Assembly (NCBI GenBank): GCA_902805735.1
Contig: CADCTW010000243.1
Location: forward strand, 1-64,000
DNA length: 64,000 nt
DNA from: an uncultured Gemmatimonadota bacterium
GTDB lineage: Bacteria; Gemmatimonadota; Gemmatimonadetes; Longimicrobiales; Longimicrobiaceae
Direction of reading: 5' to 3'
Positions 291 through 64,000 of this stretch are shown piece by piece (the first letter of the stretch is position 1; each line of letters starts with the position of its first letter). A program made the translations under genes and the position numbers. The notes under the pieces were generated by a model. That model had not been told where the DNA came from. It worked only from the letters and a program-made list of their open reading frames with translations, and did no database searches.

Positions 291-335
291 AGTCGGGACG
301 GCCGGATTTGAACCGGCGACCCCCTGAACCCCATT
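291..335 (-). repeat. Left att-like direct repeat: 3' part of tRNA-Pro(GGG)-like gene, anticodon loop to acceptor
   Basis: Exact 45-bp match to 44432-44476; reverse complement aatggggttcagggggtcgccggttcaaatccggccgtcccgact has T-stem GCCGG/CCGGC, loop TTCAAAT and anticodon loop ATGGGGT. Confidence 0.8.
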
Positions 336-32047: not shown

Positions 32048-32479
32048 GGATGCTTCCGGCCAAGCATAGCCTCGCTCCCCGCCGGGCGATCACACCCGCA
32101 TAGCCGCTGTGAACGCGTTCAGCGAGGAAGAGGAAGGTGGTGAAGTACCTCACCCTGGCAGTCCTAATCGAGTCGGCCATTTCGATGATCTTGTGCTGAT
32201 TCCCCCAAAGTGGCAGCTTCGCTGAGGACACAGGAAGTCAGTAAATCGGTAGGCTGGCGGTGGGTAGACGTACACTTAGCGTCTAACACTTTGTCGGTTC
32301 TTGCGCATTTCGAGCATTCTTGGGCGGACCCGCACAGGCCTCGCATGAGGGCGGCTCGCTCCCCGAGTGCCCGTTCGGTCGTAGCGGCGGGTGAGAAGGC
32401 GCGCTCGACACCCTGCACAGCTGACCTCCGCTTGCGACGAGTTGGTACTCCATTTCCACGCGCCGCTACATCGAACCTC

Positions 32480-33382
32480 ATGAAAATGCGTGCCGGTCCA
32501 GACGGGGTCCACCTTTTTGATCGCCTGACAGGATGGAACATCCTGATCGACGAGGCGCGCGTCCCGAGCGCGATGTGGTCCTCGGCACCACGCCAAGTTT
32601 CGATTGCCCTAACGAATGCTTGTGACCTGAGGTGCTCGTACTGTTACGCACCCAAGCACCCAGCCGCGTTGGACACGGGGCGTGTGGTGTGCTGGCTTCA
32701 GGAGCTCGACGAACACGGGTGCCACGGTGTGGGGTTCGGGGGCGGAGAACCGACTCTGCACCGCGGCCTGCCTGAGCTCTGTCGCTGGGCCTCGGAACAC
32801 ACCGGCCTCGCGCTGACGTTCACGACCCATGCTCATCACTTTACGAGCCGTCTTGCCGCCGATCTGCGCGGAAACGTACACTTCATCCGCGTGAGCATGG
32901 ACGGGGTAGGGGCCACTTATGAGTCGTTGCGGGGGCGTCGGTTTGCCGACTTCATTCTGCGCCTGTCCATCGTTCGTGAGGTGGCGCCCATCGGCATCAA
33001 CTTCGTGGTCAATGCACGTACAGTGCGGGATCTCGATGCTGCGGTGGAGATCGCGAGGGAGGTTCGTGCTTCCGAATTCCTGCTTCTACCGGAGCAGGCC
33101 ACGGCTGGTGCTCCTGGGATGGACGCGAGTACGCGCGAGCTGCTCGCTGCTTGGGTGGAGACGTACCGCGGAGGCATTCCGTTGAGCGTGAGTGAGAGGG
33201 GAGCCACCGGACTGCCGACCTGCGCTCCCCTCCCGTTGGAAACGGGGCTTCGCGCGTATGCGCATATCGACGCGAGTGGATTGCTCAAGCGGTCATCATT
33301 CGATGGCGCAGGTGTTCCGATCGGACCCGAAGGTTTCGTGAGCGCGTTGCGAGCACTCGAAGAGATTGGGGGAACAAGCTGA
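32480..33382 (+). CDS. Radical SAM protein
   Basis: SIALTNACDLRCSYCYAPKHP (CxxxCxxC), GVGFGGGEPTLHRGL, IRVSMDGVGATYESLRGRR. Confidence 0.85.
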   Translation: MKMRAGPDGVHLFDRLTGWNILIDEARVPSAMWSSAPRQVSIALTNACDLRCSYCYAPKHPAALDTGRVVCWLQELDEHGCHGVGFGGGEPTLHRGLPELCRWASEHTGLALTFTTHAHHFTSRLAADLRGNVHFIRVSMDGVGATYESLRGRRFADFILRLSIVREVAPIGINFVVNARTVRDLDAAVEIAREVRASEFLLLPEQATAGAPGMDASTRELLAAWVETYRGGIPLSVSERGATGLPTCAPLPLETGLRAYAHIDASGLLKRSSFDGAGVPIGPEGFVSALRALEEIGGTS

Positions 33383-33810: not shown

Positions 33811-36800
33811 ATGCCGAATGTGAATTGGGCGACTTTCGCCGATCTGCCTGGCGCTGCGGACATCAACTTCGAGTTGCTTTGCAGAGCTCTCGTGCGCCTT
33901 CACTATGGCCGCTTCGGTGACTTCTTCGCTCTTGCGAACCAGCCTGGTGTCGAGTTCCACCTTAGGCTCACCGAGCCTTGCGCACTCGGTGAGGCGGGAC
34001 GCTGGTACGGATGGCAGTGCCGATGGTACGAACTGCAGAGTGGCCGTCCGATAGGGACTACACGGCGGAAGAAGATCGAGGAGGCGATCAGCAAGACCGA
34101 AGCTGAGGTTCCAGGGATCACTGACTGGGTGCTTTGGACTCGTCACCCGCTGACCGCCGGCGACCAGGAGTGGTACCATGGACTCGCTACGAGGATGCGG
34201 TTGCATCTCTGGACCGCCGCTGACGCGGAGCACCTGCTCTCTGGGCCGGCGGAGATCCTCCGGAGCACCTACTTCGGCGAGCTGGTGCTCACCGAGGGTG
34301 TCCTTCAGGAGCTACATAGGACTGCGGTCGCGCCGATCAAACGTCGATGGCAGCCCGAAGTGCATCAGGTAATCAATGCGGAGCGCTCGCTCCGGCGTAT
34401 GCTGGGGACCGGGGACGCTTGGTCCGAACTCAATAGCGCCGCGGGACGCCTGGAGGTCGGTGCTTCGGCGATTGCCGGAAATCGCACCCGCCTCGCGACC
34501 GTGCTCTCAGAGCAGCTGGAGGCCCTAACCGCCGCGGCGCGTGCAGCCGCCGCGCAACTGAATGACACGGCCAGTTTGCTCCACAGTGGTGATCTGGAGC
34601 TTCTTCGGGCGCACCTCGACAGCGTCGCTCCTCCGGCGACTGAGTGGGAAGTCCTACTGCGTCGCCTCAGAGCTGCACGCCACTCCGTAGTGCTCGTCGC
34701 AACGAACGTTGTGGCGGACCTCCACACGGCCCACCAAGTGCGGTCCGCGCTCCGACGCGATCTGGCGCGGGAGTTTGTGGCGGTGTTGGCGGACGCCGGA
34801 TGTGGGAAGACCGAACTCGCGGCCCAACTCACTTCCGCGACAGCCGACCGCCCGGCGGGCATCCTTCTACACGGCAGAGGGCTGCACGCTGGGAAGGACC
34901 TGGATGATCTTGCCCGTGGCGTGGTGGTCAATGGGAAGCCCGTCCCCAGCTTCCAGGGGCTGCTCGCGGCCCTCGACGCCGCAGGGCGGCGGGCGGGGCG
35001 CCGCCTGCCTGTAGTCATCGATGGCCTGAATGAAGCCGAGGACCCGCGCGACTGGCAGAGTCCTTTGGGTTCGCTCGTCGAGTCGCTGTACAAGTACCCG
35101 TACGTGCTGGTTGCGTGCACACTCCGCTCGGCGTTCGCAGATGAGGCGCTACCTGACGCCGTGAAACGCATCAACGTGCCGAGCTTTGAGCGGGATACGG
35201 CCCAAGCGGTGCGCCGTTACTTCAGGTACTACAAGATCAATCCAGCCGACGCACTACTGCCTTGGGGATTGTTGCGCCACCCTCTCACGCTACGCCTCTT
35301 CTGCGAAGTCGCGAATCCGGAGCGCAAGGTCACGGTGGGTGTCGAAGCGATACCAGGTTCACTGACAGCGATCTTCGATCGCTATCTCGAACAGGCCGCC
35401 GACCGGATCGCGCAGCTCGCGCCACGCAACCGGCGCTACTACCAGGCCGATGTGCTTGCCGCCCTCGAAAAGATCGGTGCTGCCCTGTGGGAAGAGGACA
35501 CCAGGAGCTTAGGCATCGACTGGCTAAGGCGCTACTTGGGCGATCAAGAACGGCCCTGGAATGAGAGTATCGTGAGTGCGCTGGAGAATGACGGTGTCCT
35601 GTTCCGCGTTCCTGGTGATCGCCCCGGTTCCGGGGAAATGTCAGTGATCTACGATGCACTCGGTGGGCACCTTATCGCCGACGCGATCCTGGGAGCGACG
35701 GACGCGGTGCGGTTCAAGGAGTGGATCGGAGACGAGGACAACCTCATCGCTCTCACCGGGAACTTGGACGAGCGGCATCCGCTAGCCGATGACATCTTTG
35801 TGGCGCTCGCGGGGCTGACTCCTCGCAGGTCGCATCGGACCCAGCTCTGGAGCGTTCTGGACGAGCCGTCGCGCACTGAAGCGTTATACGAAGCTGCCAA
35901 GCTCGAAGGAGCGTTCTTGGACGCGAACACGGTTGCGGAGCTCGGCCGACTGGTGGCTGCTAAACCTGCCGGCCGTCGCGACCTTCTCGATCGCGTACGG
36001 GTCACGCGCGCGGCTCGCTCGCACCCGCTGGACGCTACTTTCTTGGACGCAGCGCTTCGGCCCATGCAGATCGCTGACCGTGATCTGCGTTGGTCTGAAT
36101 GGGTGCGCAGCAAACAAAAGGAAGTACTCGGGGATCTGGAGGATCTGGAGAGGCGTTGGGCCCAGGATCCGGCTCGGTCGTCTAGTGATGCGCTCCGTGC
36201 ACGATGGGCCATGTGGACGCTGACCAGCACGGTCCGAGCCTTACGGGATCAGGCGACCAAGTCACTGTATTGGTTCGGTTTCGGAGATCCCAACGGACTC
36301 TTTGACCTCACGCTCGATGCATTGGAAGTCAACGATCCGTACATTCCGGAGCGTATGCTGGCAGCTTGCTACGGGGTGGCGATGTCATGGTGGGCCGATC
36401 CACGCGGTGGTGCGGTCCGCGGCGCGCTCCCGCGGTTCGCGCAAGAGTTGGTGACCCGGATGTTCGTCCCCGAAGCACCCGCATCGACGCGGCATGCACT
36501 GACACGCGACTACGCCCTGGGAGTGATCGCGGTCGCCAAGATGATTGTTCCAACATGCATCGCCGAAGAGCACGATGCGTACTTGCAGCCTCCTTATGCT
36601 CACCTCTCATCGCCATTCCCTCCAGCATCCGAGATCAAGGATCTCGACGTGGCGGGAGCTGAGCACGCGATCCACATGGACTTCGGCAACTACACACTCG
36701 GGAGGCTAGTTTCTGATCGCCGCAACTACGATTACGACGATCCGACCTTCCAGGAAGTGCGCCGTCAGATTTATCACCGCATCCTGCAGCTGGGGTACTC

Positions 36801-37857
36801 GGAAGCGAGGTTCGACGCCATCGACCGCAGCGTTGGCGAGGACGCCTGGCGCGTCCACCGTCGCAACAGCGGCAAGGTGGATCGGTACGGGAAGAAGTAT
36901 TCCTGGATCGCCTATTTCGAGATGTACGGCTTGAGGCTCGACGAGGGCACCCTCGACGAGTGGCACGGAGCGGCGCGTCCGTCCGATGCGGACATTGATC
37001 CGAGCTTCCCCACGCCAGGTCGGACATGGATGCCGGACCTGCCGGAGATCTTCTCCACCGCACCCGCCGAAGCGCGCGACTGGCTGTCACATCAGACGAC
37101 ACCCGACTACCGGTCCCTGCTGAATCCTCAAGTTGTGGACGGTGTGGATGGCCCGTGGGTACTACTGAACGGATATGTCGAGCAATCCGCCCCGACCGAT
37201 GGCCGGCGAATCTTCACTTTTCTGCGTGGGGTGCTGACAAAACCGAAGCTGGTCGACCGGCTCGTCGGCATCTTCGATTCGTTGAAGTATCCTGGCAACA
37301 ATGCCATTCCGGATGGGCAGGAGGACCACTACACGTACGCGGGTGAGATCCCCTGGTCAGCCCGTTTCGGTGTGGCGCTCCGCACTCCGTCGGGGAAAGC
37401 GGAACGCGACATCCGCGAAGCTTTTGAGTCGCACGACGGCGTGCGTTGGGTTCCGGGTGTCAAGGTCGAGATACCAGTAAGCGATTTCGCTTGGGAGAGC
37501 TATCATAGTGAGGTGAACCAGGCCGGCCGCATCGAAGTGCCGGCACCCGCGCTCTGTGAGCGACTCGGGCTGGTCAACCACCAGGGTGAGTGGGACCTGT
37601 ATGATTCTGCCGGCAGCGTCGCCTCGCTGTACCGGGAATCCAAGTCGGAGTCCGACACGTACTCGTCCCATCTAGTGTACCTACGTGCTGACCTCATGTC
37701 CCGATACCTCCGGCAGACACGCCAGACTCTTATGTGGTTCAACTGGGGTGAGCGAGGCTTTGAGCATCGGACGACGATGGAGGTCATGGACGAGCTTAGA
37801 GCAGTGTTCGCGCGATACGACCACATCCATCGGCATGCGGAGGTCTGGACGCGGTAG
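33811..37857 (+). CDS. Large STAND/NACHT-like NTPase with Mrr-like N-terminal domain (Avs-like architecture)
   Basis: NFELLCRALVRLHYGRFGDFFALANQPGVEFHLRL...WYGWQCRWYE; Walker A VLADAGCGKTELAAQL; Walker B RRLPVVIDGLNEAED. Confidence 0.7.
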   Translation: MPNVNWATFADLPGAADINFELLCRALVRLHYGRFGDFFALANQPGVEFHLRLTEPCALGEAGRWYGWQCRWYELQSGRPIGTTRRKKIEEAISKTEAEVPGITDWVLWTRHPLTAGDQEWYHGLATRMRLHLWTAADAEHLLSGPAEILRSTYFGELVLTEGVLQELHRTAVAPIKRRWQPEVHQVINAERSLRRMLGTGDAWSELNSAAGRLEVGASAIAGNRTRLATVLSEQLEALTAAARAAAAQLNDTASLLHSGDLELLRAHLDSVAPPATEWEVLLRRLRAARHSVVLVATNVVADLHTAHQVRSALRRDLAREFVAVLADAGCGKTELAAQLTSATADRPAGILLHGRGLHAGKDLDDLARGVVVNGKPVPSFQGLLAALDAAGRRAGRRLPVVIDGLNEAEDPRDWQSPLGSLVESLYKYPYVLVACTLRSAFADEALPDAVKRINVPSFERDTAQAVRRYFRYYKINPADALLPWGLLRHPLTLRLFCEVANPERKVTVGVEAIPGSLTAIFDRYLEQAADRIAQLAPRNRRYYQADVLAALEKIGAALWEEDTRSLGIDWLRRYLGDQERPWNESIVSALENDGVLFRVPGDRPGSGEMSVIYDALGGHLIADAILGATDAVRFKEWIGDEDNLIALTGNLDERHPLADDIFVALAGLTPRRSHRTQLWSVLDEPSRTEALYEAAKLEGAFLDANTVAELGRLVAAKPAGRRDLLDRVRVTRAARSHPLDATFLDAALRPMQIADRDLRWSEWVRSKQKEVLGDLEDLERRWAQDPARSSSDALRARWAMWTLTSTVRALRDQATKSLYWFGFGDPNGLFDLTLDALEVNDPYIPERMLAACYGVAMSWWADPRGGAVRGALPRFAQELVTRMFVPEAPASTRHALTRDYALGVIAVAKMIVPTCIAEEHDAYLQPPYAHLSSPFPPASEIKDLDVAGAEHAIHMDFGNYTLGRLVSDRRNYDYDDPTFQEVRRQIYHRILQLGYSEARFDAIDRSVGEDAWRVHRRNSGKVDRYGKKYSWIAYFEMYGLRLDEGTLDEWHGAARPSDADIDPSFPTPGRTWMPDLPEIFSTAPAEARDWLSHQTTPDYRSLLNPQVVDGVDGPWVLLNGYVEQSAPTDGRRIFTFLRGVLTKPKLVDRLVGIFDSLKYPGNNAIPDGQEDHYTYAGEIPWSARFGVALRTPSGKAERDIREAFESHDGVRWVPGVKVEIPVSDFAWESYHSEVNQAGRIEVPAPALCERLGLVNHQGEWDLYDSAGSVASLYRESKSESDTYSSHLVYLRADLMSRYLRQTRQTLMWFNWGERGFEHRTTMEVMDELRAVFARYDHIHRHAEVWTR

Positions 37858-38136: not shown

Positions 38137-38380
38137 TCCCTGAGGCCTGGATCTGCCATTTACACGGCTCTGCGTGCTGCAAGTTACCAGAAAAGTCCCT
38201 GTATACGCTCACCTTCACTGATATAGCTGCCCAGCAGGTTTGCTGAACGCCGACGACATGCGCGTCCAGGTCGACCACGCCGTCCTCGTCCAGCACGACC
38301 CCGGAGCGTTATGTAGTCGAATCGTGCAAGCTGTTTAGACGCGTATGTTTGCGCACCTGCTGCAGCTGCGCAGCACAAAG

Positions 38381-38420
38381 AAGGAAGGGGACGCCGGAGT
38401 TCTCCGGCGTCCCCTTCCTT
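38381..38420. terminator. Perfect 19-bp stem, 2-nt loop
   Basis: aaggaaggggacgccggag tt ctccggcgtccccttcctt. Confidence 0.8.
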
Positions 38421-38426
38421 CGTAAG

Positions 38427-38449: not shown

Positions 38450-39958
38450 TCAGCGGCCCGGCGCCCTCACGGCGACGTTCACTCCCGGGATCAAACCGTT
38501 CGCGGGCGCATCGCGCACGGAATCAAACTCGACGCACAGATAGACCGCGCGCGCGGCGAAGTGCAGATAGGACGTGTTCATCGCATCGTTCCACCGCTCG
38601 GTGCCCCACCCGCCGCAGATGGCGACGAGCTTGTCAGAGAAGAACTCTGCACGCTCGCTCCGCCACATTCGGCGGAACATGTGCCAGCCACCTCGGAACA
38701 CGTGCGGCAGGGCGCCTCTCGGACTCGTGGCACACCGCTCCACCTTCAGAAACCAGAACTCCATCTCCGCGGCACCTGCACATACGTTGGGGCCGACCGC
38801 CGAGGGTACCAGCGGCGCATCTGGATCATCGGTCCCTCGCTCCTCCAGATACGCGACGAGCGCGTCATGGACGCGCTTCGAGATTGGAATCACCCGATCG
38901 ATCTCCTGCTTGTCATGGCGCATGCTCCAGTAGATCGCTCCGAACGGCCACGCCGATTCAGGAATCGCTTCCTCCCCGATGAGCGCGAGCGCACGCTCCA
39001 CCGCCTGCTCATCTAGGAGGATGTCTCCAACCCGGAGTGATCTCACGGCTGACCGCCGGTGGCCGGTTTCTCTGGCCAGGACGAGCAGGAGCTTCAGAAA
39101 GCCCTTCGGCATGTGGCCGACGTTCGTGTCGCCCCTGCGGCGACGACGTCCGCTGACTTTCCGGTGCGACGGCTCGTCATCGGAGATCTTGGCGCCCCTC
39201 CGCCCGAACCGGTGCGCGCGCAGCTCGGCTTCTGCCGAATCCGCGACGGCGAGCATCGCCTCGTACCGGCTCACGCTCATGACGGGGCGCCTCGCCTGCC
39301 GGACCGGGTCCGGAAGCGTAAGGTCGTCGAGCGGGTTCACCCGCAGGAGCGGCTCTCCTCTTAACCTGACGGTCTTCATCCACCTGAAGATGCTCTGAAG
39401 GCGGTCGAAGTCGTCGAAGAGGGCTCGCTTGCCGGCCCTGCGCAGCACGACGTTGCGCGGAACCCCGCCCGTGAACCGCTGGATGTGGGGCACCCCCTTC
39501 TTCCGTTGCTCCAGGTGGGAATCCACCTCAGTCTGCGAGAAGTGCGCGACGATCATGTCGCGCCCGGTGGTCGTCTCGAAGACCGTCATCACCTTTTCCA
39601 TGTGCCGGGCATTACCCGGTTTCAGCAGCGGGATCTTCTTCTCCCGGTAGACGTCGAACACTTCGCCGAGCGTAAGCTCGGAGCCCTGCATGAGATGCTT
39701 GGCCGCAAGGCCAGTGGCTCCGCCTGCGAGTTTCGATAGCAGCGCCTGCGCGAAATCCTTCGCGCGGGCTTTCGCCTCCTTCAGGTCTGAGGTGCGCGAG
39801 CTCAGCCGCACCCGCTTGCTATTCCCGTTTACCGGGATCCGCGACTCCATCTGGAGCACGGGACTGCCCTCCCGGTGCTTGAGGTCGATCTCCAAACCCA
39901 CGTGCTTTACGGTCGCGACGACGCGCTCCTTCGTTTCGCTCTGCTTTCCCACGTTCAA
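38450..39958 (-). CDS. Tyrosine recombinase/integrase 1
   Basis: TGHRRSAVRSLRVGDILL; GGWHMFRRMWRSERAEFFSDKLVAICGGWGTERWNDAMNTSYLHF. Confidence 0.8.
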   Translation of the reverse strand: MNVGKQSETKERVVATVKHVGLEIDLKHREGSPVLQMESRIPVNGNSKRVRLSSRTSDLKEAKARAKDFAQALLSKLAGGATGLAAKHLMQGSELTLGEVFDVYREKKIPLLKPGNARHMEKVMTVFETTTGRDMIVAHFSQTEVDSHLEQRKKGVPHIQRFTGGVPRNVVLRRAGKRALFDDFDRLQSIFRWMKTVRLRGEPLLRVNPLDDLTLPDPVRQARRPVMSVSRYEAMLAVADSAEAELRAHRFGRRGAKISDDEPSHRKVSGRRRRRGDTNVGHMPKGFLKLLLVLARETGHRRSAVRSLRVGDILLDEQAVERALALIGEEAIPESAWPFGAIYWSMRHDKQEIDRVIPISKRVHDALVAYLEERGTDDPDAPLVPSAVGPNVCAGAAEMEFWFLKVERCATSPRGALPHVFRGGWHMFRRMWRSERAEFFSDKLVAICGGWGTERWNDAMNTSYLHFAARAVYLCVEFDSVRDAPANGLIPGVNVAVRAPGR

Positions 39959-40026: not shown

Positions 40027-40500
40027 TCACCTCCTACCTTCTCCCACCGCCGTCCGAGCCAGCGCTTCGGCATCGAACCCCTTGCGGCCGGCGCGCGGCG
40101 GCGCCTCCGCCTCGGCCGCGGGGCGCACGGGCTTGCGCGGGAGCTCCCCGCGGAAGAACCGCGGGGACCCCTTTCGCCCCGCGTTACTGAGGCGCCCCTC
40201 CGCCTGCAGGGCGCGCAGGTGCGATGGCGAGTATCCGCTGTACGCGGACGCCTGCTCCAGCGTGAGCATCGCCGCGGCTTCGCGGCGCATCGCATCGGCC
40301 AACTCGCGCGCGTGCGTCTCACACAGGCGCGCGGCGGCCCGCATCCCGTACCGGACCCGCAGGGTCGCGGCTTCCTCGCGCCAGGCGTGCACGAGCGCGC
40401 CGAGAGGCGCGTCCGGAGCCACTCCCTCCTCGCCAGCCATGTGCGGCGTTGCGCCGCCGCCGGCGCGCCGGCGCTTCCCGTCGCCACTCTCGTTGGCCAT
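40027..40500 (-). CDS. HTH/excisionase-like protein paired with integrase 1
   Basis: MLTLEQASAYSGYSPSHLRALQAEGRLSNAGRKGSPRFFRGELP. Confidence 0.65.
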   Translation of the reverse strand: MANESGDGKRRRAGGGATPHMAGEEGVAPDAPLGALVHAWREEAATLRVRYGMRAAARLCETHARELADAMRREAAAMLTLEQASAYSGYSPSHLRALQAEGRLSNAGRKGSPRFFRGELPRKPVRPAAEAEAPPRAGRKGFDAEALARTAVGEGRR

Positions 40501-40959
40501 GGACTCGCCTCTCGGACCGGAGCTTCGCTCGTCTGGTCCCTGAGGACGTAGCCGCGGCACCGCTCCGCGCCCTTCGGGGCCGGCGCTGGCCGCCGGATGT
40601 GCCGCTTACGCGGACAGAAAGCCTCCTTGAAGAAAAGGTTTGGTTGAAGCGTTCGGGTTGCGCCTGAGTCCTGCTGGCCGGGTCCGGGTGCACACCACCT
40701 GCGCTGGCCTGCCGCGTCTACGCGCCTCTGGCGCTTCGGTCGGGCGGGTTCGCGCTCCTCCTTCAACCTCCTTTTTCTTTTTTGTCGGCTGCGGCCGTTG
40801 TCGGCCGGTTCCCGCGGGTCGTTTCACACGAAGCCGACGGCTTCGTACGCTCGCTGGGCATCTGGGCAGGAGAAGAAGGAAGGATCTACTACTACTTTTC
40901 TTTTTTGGGTTTGGGGTTCTAAAGAAGAACCCAGAGTAGGGGGCTAAGGCTTCTGGAGA

Positions 40960-41007
40960 CCCCCCTCTTCTTTCCCCCCCTATAGTCCCCCCCTTTCTTC
41001 TCCCCCC
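40960..41007. repeat. Perfect 21-nt homopyrimidine mirror repeat, 6-nt spacer (potential H-DNA)
   Basis: cccccctcttctttccccccc tatagt ccccccctttcttctcccccc. Confidence 0.9.
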
Positions 41008-41036
41008 TTGGGGTCGGGAGGGGACCAGAGGACGGG

Positions 41037-41639
41037 GTGGTGCACGCGGGGGACGGACGATCACGAAGGGGCTCGGCGGCATCGCCGCCGCGCCGGATGC
41101 GGGGCAACAACGAAAGAGGGCCGCGCCGGAGCCGATCATCGGCTTCCAGTCGCGGCCCTCGCTGCAGAGGGGGGTGTCGCGTGGGGGAGGGAACTACCTG
41201 CGGGCGGAACGAAGCCGCTCACGATCAGCTGGGAGGGCCAGCGGCGCTCCTCACGGAGCGCACGCTCCTGCAGGCGCTGCCCGTGGGCCTCGATCCGTGG
41301 ATCGAGCCGTGGCTGCGCGGCGCCGTGGCCGAGAACCAGGTGCTGGAGATGAACGGCGCGCGGAGCGCCGCGGCCGCGCGGTGCCGCGTCCTCGTCTCTT
41401 TCATCGAAGCCGCCCGCGAGTGGCTGGACGGCGAGGTGGATGTGGCTGAGGCCGCCGAGGTCACGGGGTGCTGCGAGGAGACGGTGAGGCGGAAGGTCCG
41501 GGAGGGAGTCCTCCCCGATCGCCGCCCGGCGGGCCGGGGACGGCACCGCGTCCGCCGCGGCGACCTCCCGTCCCTCGACCGCCGCTACGACGCCGCGGCG
41601 GACGCCGTCCGTCTTGCCGCTACGCGGGAGGCGCGATGA
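41037..41639 (+). CDS. HTH/excisionase-like protein paired with integrase 2 (start uncertain)
   Basis: VDVAEAAEVTGCCEETVRRKVREGVLPDRRPAGRGRHRVRRGDLP; ATGA overlap with integrase 2. Confidence 0.6.
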   Translation: MVHAGDGRSRRGSAASPPRRMRGNNERGPRRSRSSASSRGPRCRGGCRVGEGTTCGRNEAAHDQLGGPAALLTERTLLQALPVGLDPWIEPWLRGAVAENQVLEMNGARSAAAARCRVLVSFIEAAREWLDGEVDVAEAAEVTGCCEETVRRKVREGVLPDRRPAGRGRHRVRRGDLPSLDRRYDAAADAVRLAATREAR

Positions 41640-42904
41640 ACACCGTTGGGGTGGTCACCGCACGCTCACGCGTGGCGCAGGGGGCAGACGTGGCACAGCG
41701 CACGAAGGCGCGCCGGAAGAAGAACTGGAACACCTCGGTGGGTGAGCATGGGTTCACCGTGCGTCTCTTCGAGACGCACCCGGGGAGCCGCATCTACCGT
41801 TCGGTTTGGATTCCGGGGCGCGATGGTGCCCCGGGCCGCGAGGACAAGAAGAGCCTGGGCCACTCCGACCGCGACCTCGCGGTCAAGCAGGCGTACGAGC
41901 TGATCGCGCACCTGCGCTCGGCGGGGGATGGGGTACCCCAGGGCGAGATCACGCTGGGCGCCCTCCGCGCCCGTTATGTGGCCAGCCGCGCCCACGCGCG
42001 GAAGAAGGAGCGCACCCGCGCCGAGGACGAGCGCAAACTTGAGCGCGTAGTCGCGTTCCTCGGGCCGACGCGCCGCGTCGTCTCGCTCGACGAGGAGGCG
42101 GTCCTGGACTATGTGGACGCGCGCCGAGGCGGCGACCCGTCGCTGCTGCACGTGCGTCCGCGGGCGGCGGATGCGCCGCCGGACAACGACCGCACTGTCG
42201 AAGCCGATCTGGTGGCCCTGCACACGATGGTGCGCTGGGGGTGCGTGACCAAGAACGCGAAGGGGGTCACCCTCCTCGCGTCGGACCCGCTGAAGGGGAT
42301 AGCGTTCCCCCGCGAGCTGAACCCGCGCGGGCCGGTCCTCAACGAGGACGACCTGCAGACGCTGCTCGGCGTCGCGGACACCATCCACCCGCTCCTGCGG
42401 CCCGCGTTGATCGTGGCCGACGGCACGGGCCGGCGCCTCTCCGCATGGCGCCAACTGCGTTGGCGCGACATCGACTTTACGCGCGAGCAGTACGGGGCGA
42501 TCCACTGGCCCGGCGAGACCGACAAGGGCGGCCTCGCCATGTGGCGGCCCATCAGCGCCCGTGTGCGCGATGCACTGCTTGGCCTCCGGCCCGTGAAGCC
42601 GGAGCCGGACGGGCCAGTCTTCCCGGCGCCGCGCAGCCCCGCCGAGCCTGTGGCGAAGCGCCAGCTCCACACCTGGCTCAAGAAAGCGTACCAGACGGCC
42701 CGCTTGGTTCCCGACCCGGGCGGGATGTGGCATCCCGTGAGGCGCAAGTGGGTTTCCGAGCGGAAGGGCTATCCGCTTACGGACATCGCCGCCGCGGGAG
42801 GCTGGAAGGATGAGCGCTCGCTCAAGAGCTACATGAAGGAGGATCCGGATACGGTGCGGAAGGTCGTGCTCGAGCCGACGCACCGGCTCAGGAGGGGCGA
42901 ATGA
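41636..42904 (+). CDS. Tyrosine recombinase/integrase 2
   Basis: GRRLSAWRQLRWRDIDF; MWHPVRRKWVSERKGYPLTDIAAAGGWKDERSLKSYMKEDPDTV. Confidence 0.85.
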   Translation: MNTVGVVTARSRVAQGADVAQRTKARRKKNWNTSVGEHGFTVRLFETHPGSRIYRSVWIPGRDGAPGREDKKSLGHSDRDLAVKQAYELIAHLRSAGDGVPQGEITLGALRARYVASRAHARKKERTRAEDERKLERVVAFLGPTRRVVSLDEEAVLDYVDARRGGDPSLLHVRPRAADAPPDNDRTVEADLVALHTMVRWGCVTKNAKGVTLLASDPLKGIAFPRELNPRGPVLNEDDLQTLLGVADTIHPLLRPALIVADGTGRRLSAWRQLRWRDIDFTREQYGAIHWPGETDKGGLAMWRPISARVRDALLGLRPVKPEPDGPVFPAPRSPAEPVAKRQLHTWLKKAYQTARLVPDPGGMWHPVRRKWVSERKGYPLTDIAAAGGWKDERSLKSYMKEDPDTVRKVVLEPTHRLRRGE

Positions 42905-44431: not shown

Positions 44432-44476
44432 AGTCGGGACGGCCGGATTTGAACCGGCGACCCCCTGAACCCCATT
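44432..44476 (-). repeat. Right att-like direct repeat: 3' part of tRNA-Pro(GGG)-like gene
   Basis: Exact 45-bp match to 291-335. Confidence 0.8.
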
Positions 44477-45087: not shown

Positions 45088-45540
45088 GTGATTACAAAGC
45101 GGAAGTACCCCCTGCCGGGGTTCCTTGTTGGCACGCTCGATCAGGAGGCGTATCAGCGGTGGCTCAGCCGAAAGGCGAACGCTCACAAGCGGCGGGACCG
45201 TGCGCGGGTCAATCCTATGTCCACGCGGGAGAGTTACATGCTGGCCATGCACGAGGCCGTGCTCCGCAGCGGTGGGAACGATGAGTACACTGGGCTACGT
45301 CTCCGTTGGGATCTTGTCAGCACCTACGACAACGTGCGGTCTGGCGCCGAAGGGCGCGCGTACAAGAAGTCGCTCGCGGATCTACCGACGGTTGATCACG
45401 TTGGTGATGGACTTGGTTCGGCTGATTTTACGATCTGCTCCTGGCGGGTCAACGACGCTAAAAACGATCTCACAATGGAAGAGTTCCTCGAGGTGTGCCG
45501 ACTTGTGCTGCGGCATCAGGACGCTGCGCGATGCTCTTGA
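45088..45540 (+). CDS. HNH-like nuclease, copy A
   Basis: DEYTGLRLRWDL...LPTVDHVGDGLG...ICSWRVNDAKNDLTMEEFL; about 80% identical to the ORF at 63586-64000. Confidence 0.6.
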   Translation: MITKRKYPLPGFLVGTLDQEAYQRWLSRKANAHKRRDRARVNPMSTRESYMLAMHEAVLRSGGNDEYTGLRLRWDLVSTYDNVRSGAEGRAYKKSLADLPTVDHVGDGLGSADFTICSWRVNDAKNDLTMEEFLEVCRLVLRHQDAARCS

Positions 45541-54716: not shown

Positions 54717-57700
54717 CTACTGGGCCACGATTCCCGCGCCCGGCGAGTCGCCCCCGATGCGCCCGCGCATTGATGCAGGTAGAGATTCCCCGCCGAGCCA
54801 CGCGCGCGCCACCTCGGAGTCAGCGGACTCTCGCACGTCTTTCGGGAGCCAGACGAACTGCACCATCTTCCCACCGCGTGCCGGGTCCGTCGCCCGGATT
54901 TCCAGAATGTCAGCAGCGTGCAGCGCTTTCATGTAGGACTTGTAGCCGATCCGAAACCGCGCGCTCAGCAGCGACAGCGCGTCTTCACGCGGGATGAAAT
55001 CCTCGACCGCAAGCTCCGCGCAGGACTCCGGAAACGTCACTGCAACCGCATCGGCGAGATCGACTCGGGTCAGCTTCGCGCGGGCGACGGGATCGATCCA
55101 CACGTACACAGGTCGGCTTCCACCCCGCTTTCCGTATGAGATGCTGATCGCCGAGCACTTGACTGTGTTCGAGATGCACCCGAACTCGCGCGCCGCGTCG
55201 TGAAGCCGCATCCAGTAGCTCGGGTCGAGGGCGCGGATGTGCTCCGGCTGCCGCGCGAGTGTTTCACCGAGCCGTTCCTCCCCGGAAATCGGAGTCCGCG
55301 GTCCCCAGCAGTACCGTCGGCCCGAGGCGTCCCTCGCGTGGGTCTCCCAAGCCTGCGCGGTGCCCCATGCAGCCTGTGGCAGGATCCCGCGTTCCTGCGC
55401 AAACTCAACGATGGTGCGCACCTCGTCGAGGGGCCAGCCAGTTTGGGCGGCGACTCGCCTCTTCCCGTAATTCGGGAACACATTGTCGAGGCGTTCCTCC
55501 CCGGCCTCCAGCAACAATGTGCCGTTCTCGATGAGCCCGCGTCCGAGGCGACCGCGGAGTGCAGCCGTCATGATCTCGTCGACACCCACGCCGACAGCAT
55601 TCGCCAGAGACTCCACAGGCCAGACCGCATCCGGCGGGGGATCTGCGGCATCTGCGTACTCGTGCATTAGGGCGGCAGCGCGGACGTGCGCGGCCGTCCA
55701 GCCCGGGTCGGCGCCGAAGGCGCGGCGTCTATGGACCCGCCCGATTTCTCGGGCGACCACATCGGGGTCGCGACCCATGACCCGCGTTTCGTGATGGATG
55801 TACAGGCGCTCCACCTGACTGCCCAATCCATAGTCGCAGTCCAGAACGCCTGTGATCCGTCCGCCCCGTGGGAACTCCACCGTCAACTCAACCCGGCCGT
55901 CGTCCAGCTGGCGCGCGAAGACGCGGATGCCGGCCGCGACGAGCACCGCGCGCACCCTGCCTTCGTACCGCTCGAGGCGGTGGCGCTGCTCAGCAGTGCA
56001 TGACTTCATCATGCGATCGACCTCCCGATCGACCATGCGCGCCTCAGCGATGAGTGACCGGAGGTCACCCGCGAGCGTGGCGAGTTCCGCTAAGTCCTCT
56101 CCCGTCAACTCGGCTACGCTCCGGGTCTGCGACTGGGCGCGTTCAATTTCGCGGCAGAGTTCCGCCACCGTTTTCCGCTTCTGCCGGGAGAGTGCGGCAT
56201 ACGCTTCAGCTTCATCCCGCGCGGCGGCCTGCTCGTCTGCGTCCAGCTTCGCACCGGTCGCCTCATCCACACCGGACATCAACCGTGCACGCGCGTGCAC
56301 CGCGAACTCGGTCGCGACGCGCGCCTCGTTCTCTGCTGCATCGCGGCGTCTCGACAGCTGGCTCAGCGATACGCGATGCGTGTCGCCCGCAAGGCGCACC
56401 GCGTCCACCGCCGTCCGGACCCGAACCGGATCCAGCGCGGAGATGAGGGCGTCAATCACGAAATCCTCGGCAGCCGCGGAGACCATGAAATGGTGATCGA
56501 AGCTGACGCCGCACTGCCTGGCCCAGTAACAGTACTCCCCATTGCGGGCGTACTGCGCATGCATGCGCATTCCGCAAGCCCCCCGACCTGGGACGTCATG
56601 ACAACACGAAATCTGCGGAATCGCGAAGTTGCGGGCTCCCCGGTACTTGTCCGTCAACGGCTCACGATACTTCCGCTTCGGCTTCTGGAGGAGCGCGCGG
56701 ATCTCAGCGTATTCGTCCGCCGACGCGAAGCTCGGGAAGGCGTCCACCTCAACCGTGTGGGTCTGGACACTACCTGCCCCGCCGGTTTGTTCCTCGAACC
56801 GGCGCGCATGGAAGCTGAATGTGCCGTAGAGCGCAGGGCTGCCGATCCAGCGCCGGAGGCGGCTGAGGGTAGCACGCCGCCAGTGCACTTCGTTCGTGTG
56901 GCGGAAGATCGTGTGGAACATCATCGGGATCATCCCCGCGCGACCCGGCGGCCAGCCTTCGTAGCCCGCCTCGATGCGGCGAAGAACCGCGCGGAGGCTT
57001 CCGCATTCACGGAGCCACGCGAGTCTTAGCTTCACCGACGTGTACATCTCGGCGTCGGGGTACGGAAGGATATAATGCGGGCGGCCGTCGTGTGTGGAGA
57101 CCACTTTGTGCTGGACGAGCTGCTCCGGGGTGACGCACTCGAGGACGGCGGGGTCTCCGAGCGCGTCTGCCATCGCAGTCAACCGCTGCCGGTAGAGCGG
57201 ATCGTCGGGCGTGGCGTGGATCAGACCGCTGGGCAGCGTGTTGCGCAGCTTGCCGATGGCAGCCTTTTGGCACCGGTTCCGCATCAAGCGCCCCGAACGG
57301 CGTGAGCTCTCGCGCGAGGCCTCCACAAACAATGCATACAGCATGTGCTTGTCGTCGGCGTTGCGCGGGTCCAGCACGCGGCCGCGGATCACGATCAGCA
57401 CGCGGTGCCTGTCGCACGTCTCTACGAAACGCACCCCGTCCCTCATGTTACGCGAGATTCTGTCGGCCTCGTTCACGAGTAGGATTCCGTAATTGCCCGA
57501 GTCGAGACGCTCCATCAACTCCCGCTCAAAGAACTCGCGTGCTTCGCGCTCGGTTGCGGTCTCGCCTGCTGCGCAGATGAAGTCCAGACAGCTCGACGAC
57601 TCGGTGAGTCCGTACGGAGCCAGATAACGGTACTGGCCGTACTGGTCGCGGCGGCTACCCTCGCTCTCCTCTGCAGCGCGCGGGTCGGAGTGTCTGATCC

Positions 57701-57935
57701 ACACGAGTACGCGTCGGTCGCTTTGGAGCGCCTGTCGGACCCTCGAGTCCAGGTGGGCATCGTTGCCGTCCCAGAGCGGCGGCCCGGAGTAGGAGGCGAG
57801 CGGCGCAGCCTGGGCGGTCTCGGCCAGCTTGCGCTGCCCCCGTTCGCTGACAGTCCGGTAGCGAGCGGAGGTAGGCGGCTTCGAGAAGTTGCGGTCCACG
57901 GGATGTGCGTGTGCTTGGGTTTGGAATCGACTCAT
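54717..57935 (-). CDS. Large serine recombinase (1072 aa)
   Basis: VLVWIRHSD; YGILLVNEADRISRN; recombinase-like and Cys-rich segments; coiled-coil region; long C-terminal extension. Confidence 0.75.
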   Translation of the reverse strand: MSRFQTQAHAHPVDRNFSKPPTSARYRTVSERGQRKLAETAQAAPLASYSGPPLWDGNDAHLDSRVRQALQSDRRVLVWIRHSDPRAAEESEGSRRDQYGQYRYLAPYGLTESSSCLDFICAAGETATEREAREFFERELMERLDSGNYGILLVNEADRISRNMRDGVRFVETCDRHRVLIVIRGRVLDPRNADDKHMLYALFVEASRESSRRSGRLMRNRCQKAAIGKLRNTLPSGLIHATPDDPLYRQRLTAMADALGDPAVLECVTPEQLVQHKVVSTHDGRPHYILPYPDAEMYTSVKLRLAWLRECGSLRAVLRRIEAGYEGWPPGRAGMIPMMFHTIFRHTNEVHWRRATLSRLRRWIGSPALYGTFSFHARRFEEQTGGAGSVQTHTVEVDAFPSFASADEYAEIRALLQKPKRKYREPLTDKYRGARNFAIPQISCCHDVPGRGACGMRMHAQYARNGEYCYWARQCGVSFDHHFMVSAAAEDFVIDALISALDPVRVRTAVDAVRLAGDTHRVSLSQLSRRRDAAENEARVATEFAVHARARLMSGVDEATGAKLDADEQAAARDEAEAYAALSRQKRKTVAELCREIERAQSQTRSVAELTGEDLAELATLAGDLRSLIAEARMVDREVDRMMKSCTAEQRHRLERYEGRVRAVLVAAGIRVFARQLDDGRVELTVEFPRGGRITGVLDCDYGLGSQVERLYIHHETRVMGRDPDVVAREIGRVHRRRAFGADPGWTAAHVRAAALMHEYADAADPPPDAVWPVESLANAVGVGVDEIMTAALRGRLGRGLIENGTLLLEAGEERLDNVFPNYGKRRVAAQTGWPLDEVRTIVEFAQERGILPQAAWGTAQAWETHARDASGRRYCWGPRTPISGEERLGETLARQPEHIRALDPSYWMRLHDAAREFGCISNTVKCSAISISYGKRGGSRPVYVWIDPVARAKLTRVDLADAVAVTFPESCAELAVEDFIPREDALSLLSARFRIGYKSYMKALHAADILEIRATDPARGGKMVQFVWLPKDVRESADSEVARAWLGGESLPASMRGRIGGDSPGAGIVAQ

Positions 57936-63183: not shown

Positions 63184-64000
63184 ATGCAGATGGAGATGCG
63201 GAACCAGAAAGCGCGGGAGTACGGTCTCGACATCATCGACATTATGCAGTACGCCGAGGATGAGACGCTCTCGCTCAGCGATCGGGCTTCGCGCATCGCG
63301 GAAACCCTCATCGACCGCAAGTTTACCTCCGGCGACGACTTCATCGCAGCCTACTTGGAGGATTTGCGGCTGGCGGGAGAGCGCGACGACGAGAAGGCGT
63401 TCGATCGGGCGCTCCGGCAGCTCGAAGAGGTCGCTGCGGTGGTGTACGTGTGGCTCGGAGACTCCGCGGCATCAGGGGATTGGACCGCCGAAGATCAGGA
63501 TGCACGTGGCGCTCGTTCCTCGAACACCAATGATCACGCTAATGTCTCGGACCTCGGAGGTACCCCTTCGTTCAGCGGGGGAGTGATGGCGCCCGCAGAG
63601 CGGAAGTACACCCTACCGGAGTTCCTCGTCGGCACGCTCGACCAGGCCGCGTACCAGCGGTGGCTCAGTCGGAAGGCAGAAGCGCACAAGCGGCGGGACC
63701 GTGAGCGGGGCAACGCTACGGCCACGCGGGAGGGATACATGCTGGCCATCCACGACGCTGTCCTCCGCAGTGACGGCCGGGATGAGTACACCGGGCTTTC
63801 TCTGCGCTGGGATCTCGTCAGCAGCTACGACAATGAGCAGGCCGCCGCTGGGGGACGCGCCTACAAGAAGTCGCTCGCCGACCTGCCCACCGTCGATCAT
63901 GTTGGTGACGGCCTCGGTCCAGCTGACTTCGCGATCTGCTCATGGCGGGTCAACGACGCCAAGAACGATCTCACGATCGAGGAGTTCCTTGAGGTGTGTC
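63184..64000 (+). CDS. HNH-like nuclease copy B, truncated by window edge; frame continuous from an acidic N-terminal segment
   Basis: Open frame from ATG 63184 through MAPAERKYTLPEFLVGTLDQAAYQRW (63586) to the edge; absent from the ORF track because it has no stop in the window. Confidence 0.55.
   Translation, partial: MQMEMRNQKAREYGLDIIDIMQYAEDETLSLSDRASRIAETLIDRKFTSGDDFIAAYLEDLRLAGERDDEKAFDRALRQLEEVAAVVYVWLGDSAASGDWTAEDQDARGARSSNTNDHANVSDLGGTPSFSGGVMAPAERKYTLPEFLVGTLDQAAYQRWLSRKAEAHKRRDRERGNATATREGYMLAIHDAVLRSDGRDEYTGLSLRWDLVSSYDNEQAAAGGRAYKKSLADLPTVDHVGDGLGPADFAICSWRVNDAKNDLTIEEFLEVC

Follow-up and report, generated by a model that had tools for sequence, protein, structure and literature searches.

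To our knowledge, clear natural candidates for H-DNA in bacteria are few, and the evidence that they have a role is thin. In most prokaryotic phyla mirror repeats are normally represented and show no enrichment (PMC4060949). Plasmid work, as cited in passages of PMC9171763 and PMC5716088, has mirror repeats converting under negative supercoiling, and in plasmid duplexes it is H-DNA that negative supercoiling promotes, whereas G-quadruplex formation was not driven by it (PMC5716088). The described systems closest to the locus studied here are the H-DNA mirror repeats of the Mirkin/Frank-Kamenetskii type; the TMECO/PIT intrastrand triplex repeats, which are dispersed one-strand Y-loop-R-loop-R foldbacks (PMC4666352); and the Neisseria pilE G-quadruplex, whose operation involves homologous recombination and a small RNA acting in cis (PMC3547852).

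In the window (the whole 64-kb stretch of DNA that was analysed), positions 40960-41007 read C6TCTTCTTTC7/TATAGT/C7TTTCTTCTC6, 48 bases with homopyrimidine arms on the plus strand. The right arm (40987-41007) is the left arm (40960-40980) reversed, with 21/21 matches across a spacer of 6 nt; when the first and last T of the spacer are counted in, the arms become 22 nt (22/22 matches) and the spacer is ATAG (4 nt). The original prediction of an exact 21-nt pure-pyrimidine mirror repeat thus holds in both sequence and coordinates, and so does its description as a classical intramolecular-triplex motif: the arms are uninterrupted homopurine-homopyrimidine tracts of at least 10 nt, the symmetry is perfect and the spacer is short. 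By its sequence, 40960-41007 is a member of the known H-DNA mirror-repeat class. It shares with the Mirkin/Frank-Kamenetskii repeats strands that are purely R or Y, a perfect mirror relation, arms 21-22 nt long and a spacer of 4-6 nt. It differs from them in being a bacterial, single-copy candidate, and in its C-rich arms, with which the pyrimidine form would be strongly pH-dependent and a G-quadruplex may compete.

Each 21-nt arm contains 15 C (71%). With arms so rich in C, the Mg-dependent purine form of H-DNA is the likelier one at neutral pH, and the pyrimidine form would be expected at low pH. The minus strand carries a canonical G-quadruplex pattern across the spacer, and only four other (G3+N1-7)4 matches occur in the 64 kb; its G4Hunter score (-2.24) is the second strongest in the window, and 3 of the 7 strongest G4Hunter peaks of the window fall within 230 bp. 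Since supercoiling of plasmids favours H-DNA and not quadruplexes (PMC5716088), the triplex would be the likelier supercoil-driven form at this site. The repeat is thus predicted to be H-DNA-competent under negative supercoiling, and may fold in the cell. With the TMECO/PIT repeats (PMC4666352) the site has in common a triplex-prone, intergenic, C/G-rich sequence and a genome that holds a large family of such elements, whereas those elements are dispersed foldbacks and the present one is a unique Y-Y mirror without purine arms. It resembles pilE (PMC3547852) in having a G-rich run upstream of a DNA-rearrangement gene, but the sequence differs.

The repeat lies, as had been claimed, between two divergent modules, xis1/int1 on the minus strand to its left and xis2/int2 on the plus strand to its right (Table 1). 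The R/K/HxxR/W/Y residues of a tyrosine integrase were recognised by eye in the divergent Int1, and relatives of Int1 were found neither in plasmids nor in genome contigs. Xis1 has no NCBIfam match, and a longer version of its ORF has no Pfam match; its homologue adjoins an int1 homologue in a member of the same family, which indicates that xis1/int1 is a real module. All the invariant catalytic residues are kept in Int2 (R267, K297, H366, R369, W390 and Y399), and the start of its gene (41636) overlaps the end of xis2 (41639). Just downstream of int1 there is a perfect inverted repeat (38380-38421; 20 bp, 2-nt loop), which resembles the strong hairpins found after each tRNA-Pro copy. In the relatives G028, G034, G036, G038 and G040, integrase matches number up to 39 per genome, several of them arranged as convergent pairs about 120-260 bp apart.

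Table 1 Coordinates of the features at and around the mirror repeat (window positions).
Feature	Position	Strand	Basis
Attachment core, an identical 42-nt copy of the tRNA-Pro 3' end, at the far end of the 44-kb island	291-332	-	
int1, divergent tyrosine integrase	38450-39958	-	PHROG 1, E 1.9e-12; no Pfam match
xis1, 157-aa excisionase-like protein	40027-40500	-	52% identical homologue adjoining int1 homologue (genome G018)
Non-coding gap separating the divergent modules, ~680 bp	40501-41180		ORF positions, R/Y-run statistics
Purine tract AGGAGAAGAAGGAAGGA	40868-40884	+	Sequence, pattern count
Perfect homopyrimidine mirror repeat	Left arm 40960-40980; spacer TATAGT 40981-40986; right arm 40987-41007	+	Direct sequence reading
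Canonical G-quadruplex pattern G7-ACTATA-G7	40974-40993	-	Four G3+ runs, loops 1-7 nt
G-rich block immediately downstream of the mirror repeat, GGGGTCGGGAGGGGACCAGAGGACGGGGTGG	41010-41040	+	G4Hunter +1.8
Second G-rich block, GAGGGGGGTGTCGCGTGGGGGAGGG, at xis2 gene start	41167-41191	+	G4Hunter +2.2
xis2, excisionase-like helix-turn-helix protein	41181-41639 (start codon uncertain)	+	HTH_17 above cut-off; TIGR01764 below cut-off
int2, tyrosine integrase	41636-42904	+	PF00589
Attachment core, an identical 42-nt copy of the tRNA-Pro 3' end, where two tandem islands meet	44432-44473	-	

The gap around the repeat is itself unusual in composition, and the purine/pyrimidine asymmetry that had been noticed there is confirmed: among 13,733 sampled windows of 400 bp, none has a larger share of its bases in R or Y runs of at least 9 nt than the one that begins at 40751 (0.32, against a median of 0.02). 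Such richness in R/Y runs across the gap makes the appearance of symmetric tracts by chance likelier. The motif GGAGAAGAARG has two matches (0.05 expected), which are confined to the purine tract upstream of the repeat and the complement of the right mirror arm; the tract could therefore pair with that arm. Terminator-like sites did not exceed the chance count, and no Rfam family matched anywhere in the 64-kb window.

Apart from the two arms, no R-only or Y-only run in the 64 kb reaches 18 nt, and the repeat is the longest mirror of the window, the runner-up having arms of 15 nt. When the 64 kb was copied 12 times under a first-order Markov model, the best arms measured 9-12 nt; in 300 copies of the local 650 bp they did not exceed 13 nt, and in 5,000 copies of the 55-bp stretch holding the repeat they did not exceed 19 nt, so that none reached 21. 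A sample of the same genome (701,774 bases, 0.70 Mb) was screened for mirror repeats with arms of at least 16 nt. All the others proved to be poly-C or tandem repeats, and 40960-41007 is the longest mirror in this sample that is neither a homopolymer nor a tandem repeat. Poly-C tracts, many lying at contig ends, swamped the output when C/T double tracts were searched for by pattern. Under a generous null, in which two tracts with a C-run/T-rich core/C-run layout are granted beforehand, perfect mirror symmetry still has a p of about 0.4% (~0.004), which makes pure chance an uncomfortable explanation. Chance is thus an unlikely source of the symmetry, the odds against it being hundreds to one, not astronomical.

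Upstream of 9 xis1-like genes, including the closest (52% identical, in G018), the best mirror arm was 7 nt, and upstream of 12 related integrases it was 8 nt; nothing comparable stands in the 690 bases upstream of an int2 relative (46% identical) from a Gemmatimonadetes MAG. The original prediction had proposed looking for mirror repeats at the same site in related integrase modules; this comparison turned up none, 8 nt being the best arm. Lack of conservation is one of the two findings by which the original prediction said it would be refuted. A conserved regulatory part of xis/int modules is ruled out as an identity for the repeat by its absence from the 9 xis1-like and 12 integrase upstream regions. 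The exact arm occurs in 1 of 399 genomes of the phylum, the window's own, and the arm matches with one mismatch in 2 other genomes are unrelated and have no mirror partner. Searches with the gap DNA against 21 family genomes, phages and plasmids gave short low-complexity matches only. No other copies or close relatives of this island were found, and the comparison, at the level of related modules and genomes, is a limited one. As neither a related integrase module nor a sampled relative carries the repeat, it looks like a one-off, lineage-specific sequence.

On balance we favour, by a little, the reading of the repeat as a lineage-specific, H-DNA-competent low-complexity tract that would be neutral or do no more than respond locally to torsion; as the repeat is not conserved, neutrality or weak action is the better bet. 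We propose that a homopurine-homopyrimidine mirror repeat arose in one lineage, in the gap between the divergent xis-like/int operons of an integrated defence island, and that negative supercoiling could convert it to H-DNA, most readily to the purine form at neutral pH. It is neither an attachment site nor part of the conserved integrase module; most likely it has no dedicated function, and it is presumably free of selection. At most it may serve as a passive torsion-sensitive stretch, absorbing negative supercoiling produced between the diverging operons.

The supercoiling-sensing role suggested in the original prediction would be physically plausible. In its selected form, divergent transcription of xis1/int1 and xis2/int2 would drive the repeat into H-DNA, which would dampen or couple the operons. 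The perfect symmetry, the common upstream gap and the top-ranking density of R/Y runs all speak for such a switch, a site between diverging operons is exactly where one would be expected, and plasmid mirror repeats do convert under negative supercoiling, according to the passages of PMC9171763 and PMC5716088 cited above. The repeat is, however, conserved in none of the related modules, and a search for a sigma-70-like promoter found none, so that no promoter or transcription start could be placed. We regard a selected switch as unlikely, and its most ambitious version, a switch that couples the two integrase operons through supercoiling and acts as a topology sensor for excision of the island, as very doubtful. 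If it were true, a mobile defence island would own a DNA-topology sensor for its excision. Lacking conservation, the repeat is probably a curiosity and not a mechanism; its perfect symmetry, single copy and position between divergent transcription units would nevertheless make it a convenient natural test of triplex readout of bacterial DNA topology.

Action as RNA or single-stranded DNA, instead of as a triplex, is a decidedly improbable alternative. The G-rich strand could form a quadruplex (G7ACTATAG7) in a possible xis1 leader, or the C-rich strand could offer a Rho-binding stretch in a possible xis2 leader. The canonical minus-strand pattern belongs to the strongest G4Hunter peaks, two more of which lie on the opposite strand no further than 230 bp away, and the site is among the top 80-nt windows of the plus strand for C over G. 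Mirror symmetry is, however, needless for quadruplex or Rho use, at least 4 other plus-strand windows exceed the C excess of the site, and the folding energy stands out only mildly (z -1.8 and -1.9).

The repeat is located within a 44-kb Dpd and Avs2 island (window 291-44473). The 42-nt 3' end of tRNA-Pro recurs at 44432-44473 and 291-332, which places two elements, of ~27 and ~44 kb, in tandem at tRNA-Pro(GGG); the ~27-kb element spans 44432-71579 of contig C243, and the tRNA gene is intact at contig position ~71.5 kb, with a third copy of the core inside it (71538-71579). A location between two integrase modules, one of which (int1) has no identified attachment site, might suggest that the repeat serves the island as a signal for recombination or replication, for instance as an origin or an accessory integrase site. 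However, the attachment cores of the island are the tRNA-Pro 3'-end copies at 291 and 44432, the mirror is absent beside the closest int1 relative, and no iteron-like repeats were found near it. We consider a signal of this kind highly improbable; the recombination role put forward earlier is not supported, with the cores elsewhere and the mirror absent both upstream of the related modules examined and from the other genomes of the phylum that were searched, and we found no evidence for a role in replication. As an attachment site proper the repeat was rejected: it is single-copy, not a direct repeat common to both element ends and the chromosomal target, and the 42-nt tRNA-Pro cores at 291, 44432 and 71538 fill that role.

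It is harder still to derive the repeat from the intrastrand-triplex (Y-R-R) family dispersed in the host, as a relative that diverged and lost its purine half. The host chromosome does contain 87 copies of GGGAGAGGNGGGTCGGGG (at most 1 mismatch) against 2 for the reversed control, and the site sequence is CCCCCCTCT...GGGGTCGGGAGGGG. The likeness, however, amounts to a few low-complexity words: the foldback purine arm is missing (GGGG only), and the window holds a single match with 3 mismatches (27773), within chance, with none at the mirror site, where the host family pattern was searched with up to 3 mismatches. Membership of the TMECO/PIT class was likewise rejected; its members carry, after the Y tract, two R tracts on the same strand, the first of them complementary to the Y tract, and the right arm here is followed only by GGGG and GGGAGGGG. 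Y-R-R repeats of the intrastrand-triplex-like kind (CCCCCCTCTCCCGTTATCGGGAGAGGGGGGTCGGGG...) are dispersed in the host (e.g., L105:18651, L117:5501, L119:6501 and contig C243:77430). The GGGAGAGGNGGGTCGGGG repeats are enriched in some members of the genus, though not in all, and have no convincing copy in the window.

Least probable of all is an assembly artefact. Poly-C contig ends abound in this metagenome-assembled genome, and other long C tracts in it look artefactual (e.g., the end of contig C27), but the mirror repeat is no homopolymer, lies in the interior of an 82-kb contig and has flanks that both belong to one island.

The island that surrounds the repeat carries a near-complete Dpd (7-deazaguanine DNA modification) cluster at 632-23235 (DpdE, F, H, J, K, QueC, C, A and B), with which a radical-SAM gene is found at 32210-33382. 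An Avs2-type STAND defence protein of 1348 aa (33811-37857; PADLOC E 1.1e-107) adjoins the integrase modules. In the neighbouring element, a 300-nt direct repeat (45095-45394 and 63596-63895, 80% identical) represents one gene family present twice. A 1072-aa ORF at 54717-57935 has a serine-recombinase N-terminal domain (PF00239), which implies that both recombinase types are present in the tandem elements.
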